Below are positions 12,935-54,529 of a stretch of 64,000 bases of DNA, piece by piece. A model generated the notes under the pieces. That model worked only from the letters and a program-made list of their open reading frames with translations. It was not told the origin of the DNA and did no database searches. A program made the translations under genes and the position numbers. Location of the stretch: assembly GCF_000022485.1 (NCBI RefSeq), contig NC_012623.1, positions 124,001 to 188,000 of the forward strand, written 5' to 3'. Position 1 is the stretch's first letter; each line of letters starts with the position of its first letter. This DNA is from Sulfolobus islandicus Y.N.15.51 (lineage in GTDB: Archaea > Thermoproteota > Thermoprotei_A > Sulfolobales > Sulfolobaceae).

Positions 12935-13050
12935 TTATACTTGCTCAAGTTATAAAGGGCAAGGTAAAATTGGGTAATGATAACGTGTGAACTAATAACT
13001 TATGGGTTGACTTATGCTGACCTTAACCTTTAAAGTCTGAGGAAGTATAA
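12935..13050. mobile_element. 116-bp MITE-like repeat, copy 1
   Basis: Starts TTATACTTGCTC and ends GAGGAAGTATAA, which are inverted copies of each other at 11 of 12 positions. A second copy of the same length lies at 48711-48826, with most bases identical. No coding capacity. Together these features fit a miniature inverted-repeat element mobilised in trans by an ISC transposase; several MITE families are known in S. solfataricus. A conserved small RNA is the alternative. It lies between the divergent GH15 and GT4 genes, upstream of the GT4 promoter region. Confidence 0.7.
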
Positions 13051-13212
13051 TAGTTGAATATCTAATGGTAAAACATCAGCAAATTTTCATTCGCTAATAA
13101 CAATAGATGCTTTATTTTATCCCTATTAAAATGATGGGCACAGAACTGACTTTTCCCCACCACCCTAAAGGGTTTCGGTTTTAATATTTTTAAGGTTCTC
13201 TCAATAAGGCTG

Positions 13213-14610
13213 ATGAACACAATAGATATAAATTTGTATATTGATTTGCCCTTATTTCAAGATAAACATAAATGGATAAATATGGAAAGGAATAGTATGT
13301 TTAGCGTTGCTATTAATACTCAAACACCACCAATAAGATTTACATTAACATACAGAGATTTATTGGAAAAGTATGGCTATCTGGAGCCTCCAATAGATCT
13401 TGGTTTATTAAGTAATGAGGATTATCACACTTCAGTTGGTGGAGTTGCGAAAATGATGTTGAGTCTCATAAACGCTAATGCCTTCTCGAAATCTAGATGG
13501 GTCTCATTAGGACCGGGTTACCCTCCATCGGTAAAAATGACTAGTACTGAAGTTCATTTCGTAGATCTAGAAGCTAAATCTTTAGCGAATTATACTAGAT
13601 TTAAAGAGGGTCTATATAATGAAGCTCACGGACTAGGTAAATATGAACTTGTAGGAGAAGAGTATATAGCTTATGCAAATTATAATTGGCTTTCAGCTCA
13701 GAAATTATTGGAATTTTATAAAGACACAGATATCTATTTTATAAATGACTTTCAACAGTTATTGGTAGGGGGAATAATTGGACCTTCTGCTCCGGCGGTT
13801 TTATGGTATCATATACCCTTTGTTCCAGAGAATTTAAGCAAAAAATTAAGGGAATTTCTGATTAAAGCATTTGAGAGTTTCGATCTAGTGATCTTAAGCA
13901 CAAAAAGGGATCTGGAAGGTCTAATAAGAACTGGAGCTAAAGTCAAAGTTAAACAAATTTACCCATTCATAGACCCTTCAGATTATAAGACAGTTGGAAA
14001 GAAGGAGATTCAATACGTCGAGGATAAGTATGGATTTAAGGGTGATGATAAGGTAGTTTTAGTTGTTGCGAGAATGGATCCAATGAAAAGTCAAGACTTG
14101 GCGATATCCGCAATAAAGAATGTTGACGCTAAATTAGTATTAGCTGGGGATGGTAGTTTTACCAGTAGGACTCTGGGGCATGATAAGGGAAGTATGTGGG
14201 TAAGTAGGTTAAAGGAATTAGCGAGGAGCTTAGGAGTACAGAATAAGGTCGTATTTACCGGCTATGTGCCAGATGATGAATTATTTGCACTTTATCAAAG
14301 GGCTAACGTGGTTCTTTTACCTTCTAGGATAGAGGGATTTGGGCTAGCAGTATGTGAAGGTTGGGTTTACGGAAAACCAGCAGTCGTAAGTAGTGGTACT
14401 GGGGTTAGTGAACTAATTATAGAGGGAGGAAATGGTTTCGTATTTAAATCCGGAAATGTTGAAGAATTGGCTGAAAAACTAAAGTTAGCACTAAAGGATG
14501 AGAAGGTTGGATCACTAGGACGAGAAACCGTTAAGAGGTGCTCAGTGAACAATGCTGTAAATGAACTGAGGGAAGCATTTGACCTAGCGTCTGAAGAGTA
14601 TAAGAAATAA
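13213..14610 (+). CDS. GT4-family glycosyltransferase (trehalose/glycogen-related)
   Basis: 465 aa with the GT-B fold. The C-terminal domain has [12 protein letters not shown] and the E-x7-E motif in [13 protein letters not shown] (~residue 380), followed by [16 protein letters not shown]. The N-terminal domain contains [12 protein letters not shown]...[12 protein letters not shown], recalling the HD-x-LWHxPFP region of trehalose-phosphate synthases and TreT. It is therefore probably an NDP-glucose-dependent transferase making trehalose or an alpha-glucan. It is divergent from GH15. TTTTAATATTTTTAAGG at ~13178-13194 is a plausible BRE/TATA element ~20-35 bases before the ATG. Confidence 0.8.
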
Positions 14611-48985: not shown

Positions 48986-50053
48986 TCACTTGGGCTCATA
49001 AGGCTTATTATTATACCAAACGCTCCACACAACCTTAGCCAACTTTCTCGCCAAGGCAGTGTATAACTTCCTACCGTGAAGCTTATCCTTGTGAGACTCG
49101 TAAAACCTCAATAAGGTCGGGTTCTTTGAACAGTTCATCTGCGCAAGAAAGTAGAAAAGGCTGCGCAAATACTTGTTACCCCTCCTTGAGATTCCCTTAC
49201 TTACCACCGCCTTACCGCTCCTCTCCACTACCGGATCTAGACCGCAATAAGCTACGAAAGACTCAGGCTTAGGGAAGCGCCTAATATCACCTACAACGCC
49301 AATGATTATCCCTGCAGCAAGCTTCCCAACTCCCGGAATCGTCAGTAGGACGTGGTCTTCCGGTACTTGGCTCTCTATCATCTCCTTGACCTCTTTTAAC
49401 TTCTCTTGCGTCTCAAAGAGGGCCTTAGCCAGTATTTTGACTTCTTCAAGTACTATTGGCGTGTATTCAAGTTGGTAGAGTACTTCTTGTGCGAAGTCTC
49501 CGCTTGCTAGTCTTTCCAATCTCTCCTTGTTTATCTTGTCGTTGTCGCTTACTAGGAATAGTGCTCTCTTTAGTCTGTTCTTTTGTTTTACTTCCATGTC
49601 CTTTAAGAACAGGTATAGAGTTACGAGTTCTCTAAGGACGTTATACTCGTACTCCTTTGCCTTGTCGACCATGTTTTCTAATTTTTCTGCGTCGTAAAAA
49701 TCTGTTTTCTTTTCCCTGAAGTCCTTTTCCCTTGATAGCACGTTTGGGCTTACTTGTAGTACTCTTATTCCTTTTTCCTTGAAGTATTGGGAAGGCTTTA
49801 TTGAGTATACTCCGGTGGGCTCTAGGACTATCGTGCAAGGCTTCATATCGAGGATTTTCTCATAGCCTTTTAGGTTGTTCTCGTATTTTCCTCCCCTGCT
49901 CGTGATTAAATTATCTTTTGACACGTCTATTCCTAGGACCCCTACCTCCTTGTCACACCTATATGGGTGGATTTTCCCACAATGTTCAGTCCGACAGTAG
50001 GGGTCGGTCACGCCGGAAACCGAAGACTTAGCTTCAGAAATACTACCGACCAT
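48986..50053 (-). CDS. IS110-family transposase (ISC1190-like)
   Basis: 355 aa. DEDD motifs: LGIDVSKDN (Asp), IVLEPTGVYS (Glu), KKTDFYDAEKL (Asp/Asp). The C-terminal Tnp domain has IPGVGKLAAGIIIGVVGD and AYCGLDPVVERSGK with SRRGNKYLR. The first ~35 residues (Cys- and His-containing CRTEHCGKIHPYRCDKE) precede the usual start of the catalytic domain and are unusual. There is no room for a long 5' non-coding end, because a viral-like ORF ends at 50080. The element ends are not resolved; it probably spans about 48930-50080. Confidence 0.85.
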   Translation of the reverse strand: MVGSISEAKSSVSGVTDPYCRTEHCGKIHPYRCDKEVGVLGIDVSKDNLITSRGGKYENNLKGYEKILDMKPCTIVLEPTGVYSIKPSQYFKEKGIRVLQVSPNVLSREKDFREKKTDFYDAEKLENMVDKAKEYEYNVLRELVTLYLFLKDMEVKQKNRLKRALFLVSDNDKINKERLERLASGDFAQEVLYQLEYTPIVLEEVKILAKALFETQEKLKEVKEMIESQVPEDHVLLTIPGVGKLAAGIIIGVVGDIRRFPKPESFVAYCGLDPVVERSGKAVVSKGISRRGNKYLRSLFYFLAQMNCSKNPTLLRFYESHKDKLHGRKLYTALARKLAKVVWSVWYNNKPYEPK

Positions 50054-50079: not shown

Positions 50080-50805
50080 TTACTCTCTAGAGCTAATAAA
50101 ACCTATATAGGTATTCAGTGAGAGAGAGGAAAATTGATTATTGATAACTTGATCCGGTATTATTGAAAAAGTCTTTAAAGTACCGTTATAGTAATAAACG
50201 TAAAGTTGGTTTGAAGCGGGTAAGTACCAGAACCCTAAACCTATTTGTTGCCCAACACTGATTGAGCCCACAGACACGTTTAACTGTTTCACACCGTCAA
50301 AGTATACGAATATTCTATACGTTGGGAAACTCCCTTTTTCCAGATAAACTACAATCCCATCAGAGGCGTAAGGTAATGCGGATGCATAGCTACCCGTAAA
50401 CCCTGAAGGGAAATTTACACCGTAGCCTATGGCGATTGAACCGTAGGATCCCGTATTGCTTGAGGACGCCAATAACCATGTGACGTTTAGAGCGATTTGT
50501 GATGATGAAAGAGAAAGAGATACGTTATTTGAAATGTACTCTTGGTTCGGCAAAACTTGAAGGTAGTAAGTGTTGTATATCGAAACGTAAGTTGGGTTAA
50601 GCCATGGAAGGTTCAGCAAACTAGAACCCGTTTGGCTCACTGTAACGAGTTGTGTAGAAGATGGCTGAACAACAATATTCTCTGAGTACGTAGAGTAGCT
50701 AGCCCCACCACCCCAACCGAAACGTGCTATTAATCCGTTTGTTGGTAAGAAGAAGATAGGTAAGAGTAAGAGGGTTAGTAGTAGTAAAGATGGGCCCCAC
50801 TTCAT
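50080..50805 (-). CDS. secreted beta-rich virus-like protein, probably 3'-truncated
   Basis: 241 aa. N-terminal signal peptide/hydrophobic segment ([18 protein letters not shown]). The rest is rich in Ser, Tyr, Asn and Gly with several N-x-S/T sites, and alternating strands like a concanavalin/LamG sandwich ([20 protein letters not shown]). Its stop lies at the edge of the IS110 element, so the native C-terminus may be lost. Fits a glycosylated surface or virion protein. No family recognised. Confidence 0.6.
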
Positions 50806-50844: not shown

Positions 50845-51075
50845 CTACTTCCGAGTGTAGCGGCGTATTTTGCTTATCAAACCATTCCTAAGCTCAGGTG
50901 AAAAGTAAAAAGTTAACACAGTAGCTACAATACCCGCCACTATAATGAACTCTGGTATATATTGTACATACCATGGTGGTGGTGGTTGATTTACTACTAT
51001 TGCGGGTTGTTGAGATATTTGAACTGAGGGTGAGGGTGGGGGTGAGATGCATAAAGAAGGAAAGTAAATCTTCAT
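50845..51075 (-). CDS. small proline-rich single-pass membrane protein
   Basis: 76 aa. A Pro/Ser-rich N-terminal region (ISPPPSPSVQISQQPAIVVN, then QPPPP) is followed by a transmembrane helix (FIIVAGIVATVLTFYF, ~44-60) and a basic tail (LISKIRRYTRK). It lies 40 bases upstream of the 241-aa secreted protein gene on the same strand. Possibly a virion or membrane anchor component; function unknown. Confidence 0.5.
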   Translation of the reverse strand: MKIYFPSLCISPPPSPSVQISQQPAIVVNQPPPPWYVQYIPEFIIVAGIVATVLTFYFSPELRNGLISKIRRYTRK

Positions 51076-51121: not shown

Positions 51122-52033
51122 TTATAGCCCATATGTAGTTTGACCAGCTCCCGGATAGTAAAATTGGTATAGGTAATCCCATCCGCCATTATTATTAGCC
51201 CATCCGTTATATATCTGAGCCTGAGCTACATTGTAAGTTGATGGTTCGTTAAGAGTATAAACGTCTGCATACATATTACCTACGGGATTATTACTAGGCC
51301 CAATATGCTCATTGCCATCAGAACCGACATATGAGAAAGTGAAGTGGATCATTCCACCAGATACATATGGTAACTCAGCATAAGGCCCGGAAGTTGAAAA
51401 TGAAGGTGCTTCGACTATACTCATGGCTGAACCCGTATTAGTCCATGGTATTGATGTATATATTGTTGTAGTCCAATAAGTCCCATTGGCGTAATATACG
51501 TAGAGTTGAGCTAGCGCTGTGCCGTTTCCAAGATTTTCTAAGAACACATCCAAATAAGTTGCTTTTCCGGCGGGGACATAGTTTTCATTATTATATACAA
51601 GTTGTCCATTTACAATAGTCGTCACAAAATAATTAACTGATACATATGATCCCACATCAATATCAAACCCCGCCTGAATAAAGTTAGTCTGTTCTGAACC
51701 AGATGAAGAATCGGTACCGTATCCTATTTGTGCGGGACTTAACCCAATCCATATACTTATATCTTCAGTATATATGTAGTTTGGGTAAGAAATGTAACCT
51801 AACGTAAGGTTTCCAACATATATACTTTCACTAGCCCACAGTATGGGCCCCCAGTAGTTTGTAAACCACGATTTCCATTCAACAGAGTAAGCTACACCAG
51901 CCCAATTGTCTGAGTTATAAGTATTTACTATTTGACTTGCACCTATCTGACTTGCAGTTATGGCACCGGTAGGTGTTGCCAATATTAGTAACTCTATGGA
52001 TAGGGTTAGAAGGGCTAGAAGGGCCTTCCTCAT
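51122..52033 (-). CDS. secreted eqolisin (G1 glutamic peptidase)-like protein
   Basis: 303 aa with a signal peptide (MRKALLALLTLSIELLILAT). Landmarks of the eqolisin fold appear in order: NWAG (43-46), WIGL (95-98), NFIQAGFD with Gln120, and MSIVEAP with Glu208. In scytalidoglutamic peptidase the catalytic pair is Gln53/Glu136 (spacing 83); here it is 88. It may be an acid-stable extracellular peptidase, which suits a host living near pH 3. It lies in a run of minus-strand virus-like genes. The assignment rests on motif order and needs structure prediction. Confidence 0.55.
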   Translation of the reverse strand: MRKALLALLTLSIELLILATPTGAITASQIGASQIVNTYNSDNWAGVAYSVEWKSWFTNYWGPILWASESIYVGNLTLGYISYPNYIYTEDISIWIGLSPAQIGYGTDSSSGSEQTNFIQAGFDIDVGSYVSVNYFVTTIVNGQLVYNNENYVPAGKATYLDVFLENLGNGTALAQLYVYYANGTYWTTTIYTSIPWTNTGSAMSIVEAPSFSTSGPYAELPYVSGGMIHFTFSYVGSDGNEHIGPSNNPVGNMYADVYTLNEPSTYNVAQAQIYNGWANNNGGWDYLYQFYYPGAGQTTYGL

Positions 52034-52069
52034 TGTAAGCGAAAAAAGAATGTAGACTTTATAAAGAGC

Positions 52070-52423
52070 TTAAAACGGTGGGGCGTAGTTAAAGAGAAGG
52101 ATAAATGTGTTTTGTGTGTCTATCAGTATCGACAACACGACAAACGGTAGTAATGAAAGCCACTTATACTTACTTACTTTTAATAGGTCGAAAAGTCCTG
52201 TATACCAGTAGACTCCGGTGAAAAATAGAAGTTTTACTGATATCAGCATTAGTAACGCTAAGATAAACGAGATGTGGCCTTCATAATAATAATAGAACCA
52301 GATAAAGTAGTTCTCTTCAAAGATTGCGTTCTCTTTCAACCAATATATTGCAGATATTATGACGTCATAAACATTTAGTAGGATGAAGAGAATCCATACT
52401 ATTTTAAGGATTCTCATCAACAT
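52070..52423 (-). CDS. small polytopic membrane protein
   Basis: About 117 aa with three hydrophobic helices (LKIVWILFILLNVYDVIISA, HISFILALLMLISVKLLFFT, WLSLLPFVVLSILI). I choose ATG 52423; a GTG at 52426 is also possible. The start abuts the stop of the small zinc-finger gene (52427), so they are coupled. Unknown function; likely virus- or plasmid-encoded. Confidence 0.55.
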   Translation of the reverse strand: MLMRILKIVWILFILLNVYDVIISAIYWLKENAIFEENYFIWFYYYYEGHISFILALLMLISVKLLFFTGVYWYTGLFDLLKVSKYKWLSLLPFVVLSILIDTQNTFILLFNYAPPF

Positions 52424-52426
52424 CAC

Positions 52427-52573
52427 CTAACTAACGCAGATATTATGTTTTTTGCAAACATGGTCTAAGAGTGCGTCAGTCTTTGCAAACTCCTTACCGC
52501 ACACCGGGCAAGTCTTTGCGTGTTCCGTATAACGGATGTGTTGTTTCAGACTAACTGAGGAACTAAGGGGCAT
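52427..52573 (-). CDS. small C2H2 zinc-finger protein with decayed first finger
   Basis: 48 aa from ATG 52573 with one clear finger: CPVCGKEFAKTDALLDHVCK, followed by KH. Reading upstream in frame reveals YVYPLCLMPLSSSVSLKQHI, which aligns with the first finger of the 107-aa protein at 53812-54135 (VCPICLTPFETYQAFIMHL); here the first Cys is replaced by Tyr and no start codon is left. So this is either a shortened one-finger gene or a decaying paralogue. C2H2 regulators are typical of fuselloviruses. Confidence 0.6.
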   Translation of the reverse strand: MPLSSSVSLKQHIRYTEHAKTCPVCGKEFAKTDALLDHVCKKHNICVS

Positions 52574-52836
52574 CAAACAGAGGGGATAAACGTAAGGCGA
52601 GACTGCTTTACTCGTCAGTAACTTATAGAGATAAATAATAAGAAATTCCCGCCGGGCGTATATTATCTAATTCGCAAAAATGGGCGTATGATATTGGTCG
52701 TGAAGAAAATTTGAATTTTTTATATTAATGAGAAATTTTGCCTTCCACTTTCAATTCGTCGCGTTTTTACGGCAAAAATTTACGGGTTGTCAATACTTAT
52801 AAACATGTTTTTGGCAACCATAATACTCGAGGCGAA

Positions 52837-53860
<1,024 letters not shown>

Positions 53861-54127
53861 GATTTTGATGGGTTTAAGGTGGTTGTAGGATCCCCGTCAC
53901 CACCTCTTTCTTTATGCCTACCCCACGGGAGCCACACGTGCTTTTTGCCTATATGGTCTAATAGGCCATCAGTGTTTGCAAACGTTTTCCCGCAATACCT
54001 ACACGTCTTCTCTTTTTCCTCATACCTTAAATGCATAATGAAAGCCTGGTATGTTTCGAAAGGAGTTAAGCAAATAGGACAGACCCATTTATACACCGCC
54101 CTGAGTGAAACGTAAAGCATTAAGTCG

Positions 54128-54529
54128 TTACTCACGGGCGTGAACTGGTTCTCTATAGCACTCTTTAGAAACTCTAGAAATCTTTTCCTTAAATTCTCCT
54201 ATTTCCTCCGGTCTAGAAAAGAGGTTGTGTATATAAGAAATGCAAGAAACTGAAGGAGAAGAACAAACCTTGTTAAGCTCATCCCTAAAGTTTTCTATTT
54301 CTCCTATTTCATCAAGCATTAAAGGAGATAAAACTTCGTGAAGCCTTATAGTAGAATCCCTTAATTGGAGGCATTCTTGTACAGACGACTCTTTCTTCAT
54401 CTCATCTATTTGAGTTTTCAAAAGCTCCGTCTGCTTTCTGTAGTAATAGATTGTCCATACTAGGGCTACTGTAGAGACTACAGAGCTCAAGCCAGAAGCT
54501 GTGCTTATAACTTGCTGGAGAAATGCCAT
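54128..54529 (-). CDS. single-pass membrane protein with coiled coil
   Basis: 133 aa. N-terminal hydrophobic segment (ASGLSSVVSTVALVWTIYYY), then a coiled-coil/helical domain (KQTELLKTQIDEMKKESSV...). Coupled to the zinc-finger gene downstream by an 8-base overlap. Resembles host-type proteins with a short N-terminal anchor and cytoplasmic helices; function unknown. Confidence 0.55.
   Translation of the reverse strand: MAFLQQVISTASGLSSVVSTVALVWTIYYYRKQTELLKTQIDEMKKESSVQECLQLRDSTIRLHEVLSPLMLDEIGEIENFRDELNKVCSSPSVSCISYIHNLFSRPEEIGEFKEKISRVSKECYREPVHARE

Follow-up and report, generated by a model that had tools for sequence, protein, structure and literature searches.

The open reading frame at 51122..52033 (-) of the window, by which we mean the whole 64-kb stretch of DNA analysed here, encodes a protein that is very probably a fusellovirus killer toxin of the SSV11 p29 type, and profile comparisons relate its mature part to the glutamic peptidases of family G1 (eqolisins). 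The explanation that we consider most likely, and to which we give about an even chance, is that this provirus-derived, G1-descended toxin acts as an acid peptidase that cuts a surface protein of uninfected Sulfolobales.

The gene and its provirus setting

The ORF starts with ATG and its product has 303 residues (ORF listing), comprising a putative signal peptide (about residues 1-24), a G1-like domain (about 40-303) and the candidate catalytic residues Q120 and E208. Its N-terminal hydrophobic stretch, MRKALLALLTLSIELLILATPTGA, is signal-peptide-like as judged by eye. The translation carries NWAG at 43-46 and WIGL at 95-98, with Q120 lying within NFIQAGF and E208 within SIVEAPS, and coordinate arithmetic on the ORF places the Q120 codon (QAG motif) at 51674..51676 (-) and the E208 codon (IVEAP motif) at 51410..51412 (-). 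All of the motifs from which a preliminary description of this DNA had proposed an eqolisin-like protein, namely NWAG, WIGL, Gln120 and Glu208 after a signal-peptide-like start, are found in the translation. Searches of Pfam and NCBIfam placed the ORF in no family of either collection, and lipocalin and esterase matches from Pfam, NCBIfam and PDB sequence searches were at chance level and were rejected. The protein belongs to phrog_11028 in PHROGs (E 3e-108), where the function is listed as unknown; on this family assignment and the SSV11 match we annotate the ORF as a killer toxin-like gene, “gene 1” of the fusellovirus T3 transcript.

The best phage match of the window protein is AZG04149 of SSV11 (MK054237; 91% identity over 301 aa). 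The corresponding SSV11 gene is flanked on one side by a 117-aa gene and on the other by a small gene, after which VP4 follows, and it is the only ~300-aa gene on the SSV11 T3 transcript upstream of VP4. It is almost certainly the gene described as SSV11 p29, because seven genes follow it in transcript order to VP3 and 29 + 7 gives the 36 CDS of MK054237, an assignment made by position and not by explicit cross-reference. SSV11 p29 was characterized by DeWerff et al. as a protein of about 300 aa with a signal peptide, encoded on the T3 transcript, and when it is expressed alone the supernatants inhibit uninfected S. islandicus, as seen from inhibition zones; the small gene downstream of the toxin (SSV11 p30-like) is dispensable for toxicity (PMC8628083). 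The window protein is therefore homologous, at 91% identity and with the p29 numbering matched by position, to an experimentally shown toxin. Moreover, it fits the profile of fusellovirus T3 toxins in its length of about 300 aa, in its place as the first T3 gene upstream of VP4 and, by eye, in its secretion. A further member of this class, SSV1 A291, is homologous to the SSV11-type toxins by profile (hhalign). Abshier et al. 2026 found that deletion of a291 leaves replication and virions normal and abolishes growth inhibition, and that cleavage of the A291 signal peptide matters, the mechanism being stated as unknown (PMC13431529).

The preliminary description had also placed the gene in a virus-like cluster and, indeed, the flanking ORFs match fusellovirus VP4, the 117-aa gene, the zinc-finger gene and the integrase. 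A T3-type promoter with an TTTATAAA box near the ATG is recognized at 52034..52090 (-) by comparison with SSV11, from which TTTATAAA and the start context show a single difference in 57 nt. The adjoining 117/118-aa membrane-like gene (52070..52426 (-)) is 98% identical to that of SSV11, and the C-terminal half of a B129-type zinc-finger gene (52430..52633 (-)) is 82% identical. On the other side of the toxin gene are found a small SSV11 p30-like gene (50845..51075 (-); 85% to SSV11), whose product has a single transmembrane-like segment, and a remnant of the VP4 tail-fibre gene encoding the N-terminal 232 of 811 aa (50080..50805 (-); phage-family and SSV11 matches), whose truncation is abutted by an IS110-family transposase (48986..50053 (-); ORF listing and family search). 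The fusellovirus integrase (52738..53860 (+); phage-family and SSV11 matches) occupies two overlapping frames and is broken, not partitioned. No capsid gene is present within the 64-kb window, and a 2-kb DNA query from the VP1/VP3 region gave zero matches in the genome, by a DNA search that is weak at this divergence. The toxin gene is an intact copy inside this decayed provirus relic; its dN/dS against SSV11 is 0.35, a value that mostly reflects viral history.

The frame change in the integrase adjoins a stretch (52980-53090) that resembles the 3' half of a tRNA gene (attP). ARAGORN found no tRNA in the window and the relic is thus not at a recognisable tRNA site. Also adjoining the integrase are a further B129-like zinc-finger gene (53938-54123), more diverged than the first, and an orphan 133-aa ORF (54128-54529), both possibly from another element, and 8 kb from the relic the segment 60331-60528 gives a 39%-identity match to the SSV11 gene at 13047-13259. 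The homologue in Metallosphaera yellowstonensis, of the same family Sulfolobaceae, lies in a near-complete provirus, whereas 16-18 kb around the copies in G002, G005 and G004 contain no capsid genes. Degraded copies of the toxin family, with splits, stops and frame changes, are found in other Sulfolobaceae chromosomes, namely in G018 (L007/L013), G025 (L009/L065/L071), G022 (L067/L073) and G026 (L008/L014).

Remote homology to the glutamic peptidases of family G1

None of 13 toxin-family members matches PF01828 at E<=10. With hhalign, nine Q/E-bearing viral-type sequences compared at full length with 20 archaeal PF01828 proteins gave a score of 60.3 (P 6e-8), against a null of <=23.1 in 200 column shuffles. 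Signal peptides contributed part of this score, which was 34.3 after their removal (null <=21.4 in 100 shuffles), and when only the mature toxins are compared directly with canonical eqolisins, hhalign gives a modest probability of 40%. The two are joined by a bridge group of four sequences (L079-L082, from genomes G316, G233, G141 and G203), one Thermoproteota family, which scored 70.7-73.9 against the mature viral toxins (null <=20.6 in 60 shuffles) and 93.5 against archaeal PF01828 (null <=23.1). A bridge HMM run over about 2,000 ORFs and reversed decoys recovered eqolisins at best at 4.5e-9, SSV toxins at best at 9.8e-5 and the window protein at 0.0088, the first decoy appearing at 0.38. 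The solved AGP and SGP match one archaeal PF01828 protein at E 8e-12 and 1e-4, respectively, with catalytic residues aligned. The G1 likeness that had been proposed from motifs thus exceeds chance in shuffle-controlled scores, both with the signal peptide removed and by way of the bridge group, and on sequence grounds we regard descent of the mature toxin from family G1 glutamic peptidases as highly probable. Canonical archaeal PF01828 proteins are found in other Thermoproteota and are absent from the sampled Sulfolobaceae.

Three of the four bridge domains sit C-terminally in ORFs of 535-708 aa on cellular contigs. PF01828 is matched by L043/L079 (3e-7) and by L082 (1e-4, just below the cut-off). 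Pfam mostly misses L079-L082, which seem to form a glutamic-peptidase-like branch not described before.

In an alignment with all 20 archaeal PF01828 proteins and all four bridge sequences, Q120 and E208 occupy the columns of the catalytic Gln and Glu, a pair that every member of G1 conserves, and this part of the preliminary description is thus supported. Across 33 sequences the only invariant columns are W44, G46, W95, Q120, G122, P154 and E208, and of these W95 is the equivalent of AGP Trp B10, which forms a hydrogen bond with the catalytic Glu (PMC8147669). In eqolisins a strictly conserved E69 and a highly conserved W67 position the catalytic Gln, and residue 44 is a glycine (SGP numbering; PMC6154417). 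E69 is absent from the alignment throughout the viral family and the bridge group. In the viral family the canonical AW(Y/F)E is replaced by YFVTT/YFAVG-like segments and G44 by Pro100; the bridge group shares a GL(S/D)P motif with the viral family. Because E69 is missing, Pro100 stands at the glycine position and the bridge group too is without E69, the viral toxins constitute a separate G1-like branch, outside G1 proper by the membership tests applied. The absence of E69 and the presence of Pro100 also make catalytic activity unreadable from sequence, and we judge the chances evenly balanced that the SSV11-type toxin would be an active peptidase.

Two AlphaFold2 runs (full length and residues 25-303, four sequences each) gave mean pLDDT values of 38.9 and 36.8, and these low-confidence models (pLDDT <40) are nearly all-beta apart from the signal peptide. 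They are too poor to be compared with the eqolisin beta-sandwich, in which two seven-stranded sheets bring Gln and Glu face to face. A Foldseek search with one of them returned fluorescent proteins with prob <=0.28, which we discarded as noise. Published AF3 models of related toxins have a hydrolase-like beta fold with a glucanase as the best PDB match (PMC13431529). Such beta-fold models are compatible with G1, because eqolisins too have a concanavalin-like fold (PMC6357015).

The Gln/Glu dyad and the mode of action

In the mechanism that we propose, of which the G1 fold, the catalytic activity and the substrate cut are parts that we infer rather than observe, the G1-descended mature protein, which in the SSV11 subclade keeps the Gln/Glu dyad (Q120/E208) and the adjacent W95, would be an acid peptidase acting extracellularly at pH 2-4. 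A surface protein (S-layer or receptor) of uninfected Sulfolobales would be cleaved and their growth would stop, while toxin-producing cells would be protected. Acid-peptidase action is taken as the most likely mode because the SSV11 subclade keeps both the dyad and W95.

Both dyad residues are kept in the window protein, SSV11, an IMG/VR contig, M. yellowstonensis (two copies), G002, G004, G005, G029 and M.04.0.13.SSV (A291 type), and both are lost in the Lassen/Yellowstone SSVL/SSV7/SSV10 group, SSV2, SSV13 and SSV1 A291. L011 keeps Glu alone and no allele keeps Gln alone, nearly all alleles having both or neither, and a test of co-loss on the tree had two independent pairs, too few for significance. 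The viral homologues that extra viral/genome scans added to the alignment were only L019/L059, L044, L045, L058 and the SSV1 copy L084. In G005 a second, A291-type ORF has FVQAA and IGEIP; it is found at L004/L088 (G005 C1 about 1776240-1780136), followed by a zinc-finger gene, a 105-aa gene and an SSV11-type toxin, a tandem of two different toxin alleles that points to the stacking of alleles for toxicity or immunity.

Among the toxins tested, SSV11 p29 carries the dyad and is inhibitory. SSV13 p30 is without it and shows no inhibition of uninfected cells, inhibiting SSV9- and SSV17-infected cells (PMC8628083). SSV1 A291 is also without the dyad, yet it is required for inhibition, so that toxicity cannot depend on the dyad in every member of the family. 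In the SSV11 type it may do so, or binding may be the activity that the toxins have in common. Somewhat short of an even chance, in our estimate, is the fuller reading that archaeal viruses made a secreted killer toxin out of a cellular glutamic peptidase, that the SSV11 type is a still-active acid protease directed against the surface of uninfected cells, and that several sister alleles have become pseudo-enzymes for which binding would be the only remaining action, if they have one.

More tentatively, the toxin could be G1-descended and non-enzymatic, its beta-sandwich binding a glycan or protein of the target-cell surface in a lectin-like manner and its dyad being an ancestral remnant. The function of A291 without a dyad, the losses in the SSVL/SSV7/SSV10, SSV2 and SSV13 alleles and the lack of E69 across the viral family all fit such a toxin, and concanavalin-like folds are often carbohydrate-binding. 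However, Gln and Glu are invariant in 9/9 members of the Q/E subset, some of them 36-38% identical to the window protein, and the dyad has mostly been lost jointly, whereas a pure remnant would be expected to erode residue by residue. A GH16-like beta-glucanase acting on surface polysaccharide has been proposed for SSV1 A291, SSV9 B310 and SSV10 ORF299, and the A291 AF3 model matches 3AXD by Foldseek with E 1e-23 and a TM-score of 0.453 (PMC13431529). This match does not contradict G1, because both families share the concanavalin-like sandwich, and the fold match alone cannot separate them; the GH16 catalytic motif ExDxxE/ExDxE is absent from all alleles examined in a regular-expression scan and sequence homology points to G1 peptidases, such that a glycoside hydrolase is unlikely.

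A chance resemblance, in which the window protein is an unrelated secreted beta-rich protein, might be suspected from the empty Pfam search and from motifs matched by eye, but is made very improbable by the shuffle-controlled profile scores, the chain of intermediates and the presence of the dyad among the sole invariant columns. Least credible is a virion structural or virion-processing protein, the latter having been suggested in the preliminary description. The gene does adjoin VP4, but SSV1 lacking the syntenic and homologous a291 replicates its genome and makes normal virions while losing growth inhibition (PMC13431529), few SSV genes are more variable, and SSV11 p29 needs no other viral gene for its action.

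Comparison with known systems

Placement of the SSV11-type toxin in the G1 lineage, whose peptidases are pepstatin-insensitive endopeptidases active at acid pH, offers a testable mechanism (two residues, pH range, inhibitor profile) and questions the proposed glucanase analogy; if the toxin is active, a G1-type enzyme would serve as a viral weapon. In the literature searched we found no paper linking fuselloviruses or archaeal viruses with glutamic peptidases.

SSV11 p29 and the window copy have the same promoter and the same neighbours, the 117-aa gene on one side and the small gene/VP4 on the other, and they differ in that the window copy is chromosomal, within a decayed relic without capsid genes nearby, and in that toxicity is shown only for SSV11 p29. 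The SSV1 T3 gene is leaderless and, like the window copy, has its promoter box near the ATG (SSV1 box A and transcript start are annotated). SSV1 A291, the SSV10/SSVL/SSV7 alleles, SSV2 ORF305 and SSV13 p30 are homologous by alignment or profile, occupy the same genomic position and are secreted, but differ from the window toxin in having lost the Gln/Glu dyad. The killer toxin SSV9 B310, a strong inhibitor, shares position and published role with the window gene; profile comparison detected no homology between B310 and the toxin family, and at this profile sensitivity we rejected it as a relative.

With the G1 eqolisins (SGP, AGP, pepG1; PF01828) the window protein shares the Gln-then-Glu order, NW[AS]G, WxG, QxG and an acid habitat, and its Gln-Glu spacing of 88 residues compares with 81-95 in the G1 members of Table 1 of PMC3009609. 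Unlike them it falls below the Pfam threshold, has a long loop between W95 and Q120, is missing E69 and G44 and has Ser in place of D43. The bridge proteins resemble the window toxin in WxGLSP (WxGLDP in L082), QAG, YPNGT and I(V)E(T/R)P, in keeping the dyad and in lacking E69, but are mostly domains of larger cellular ORFs. Strawberry mottle virus also encodes a glutamic protease, Pro2-Glu, for which a concanavalin-like fold has been modelled (PMC6357015); this plant RNA virus is unrelated, and its protease has other residues and spacing and functions in polyprotein processing, not as a toxin.
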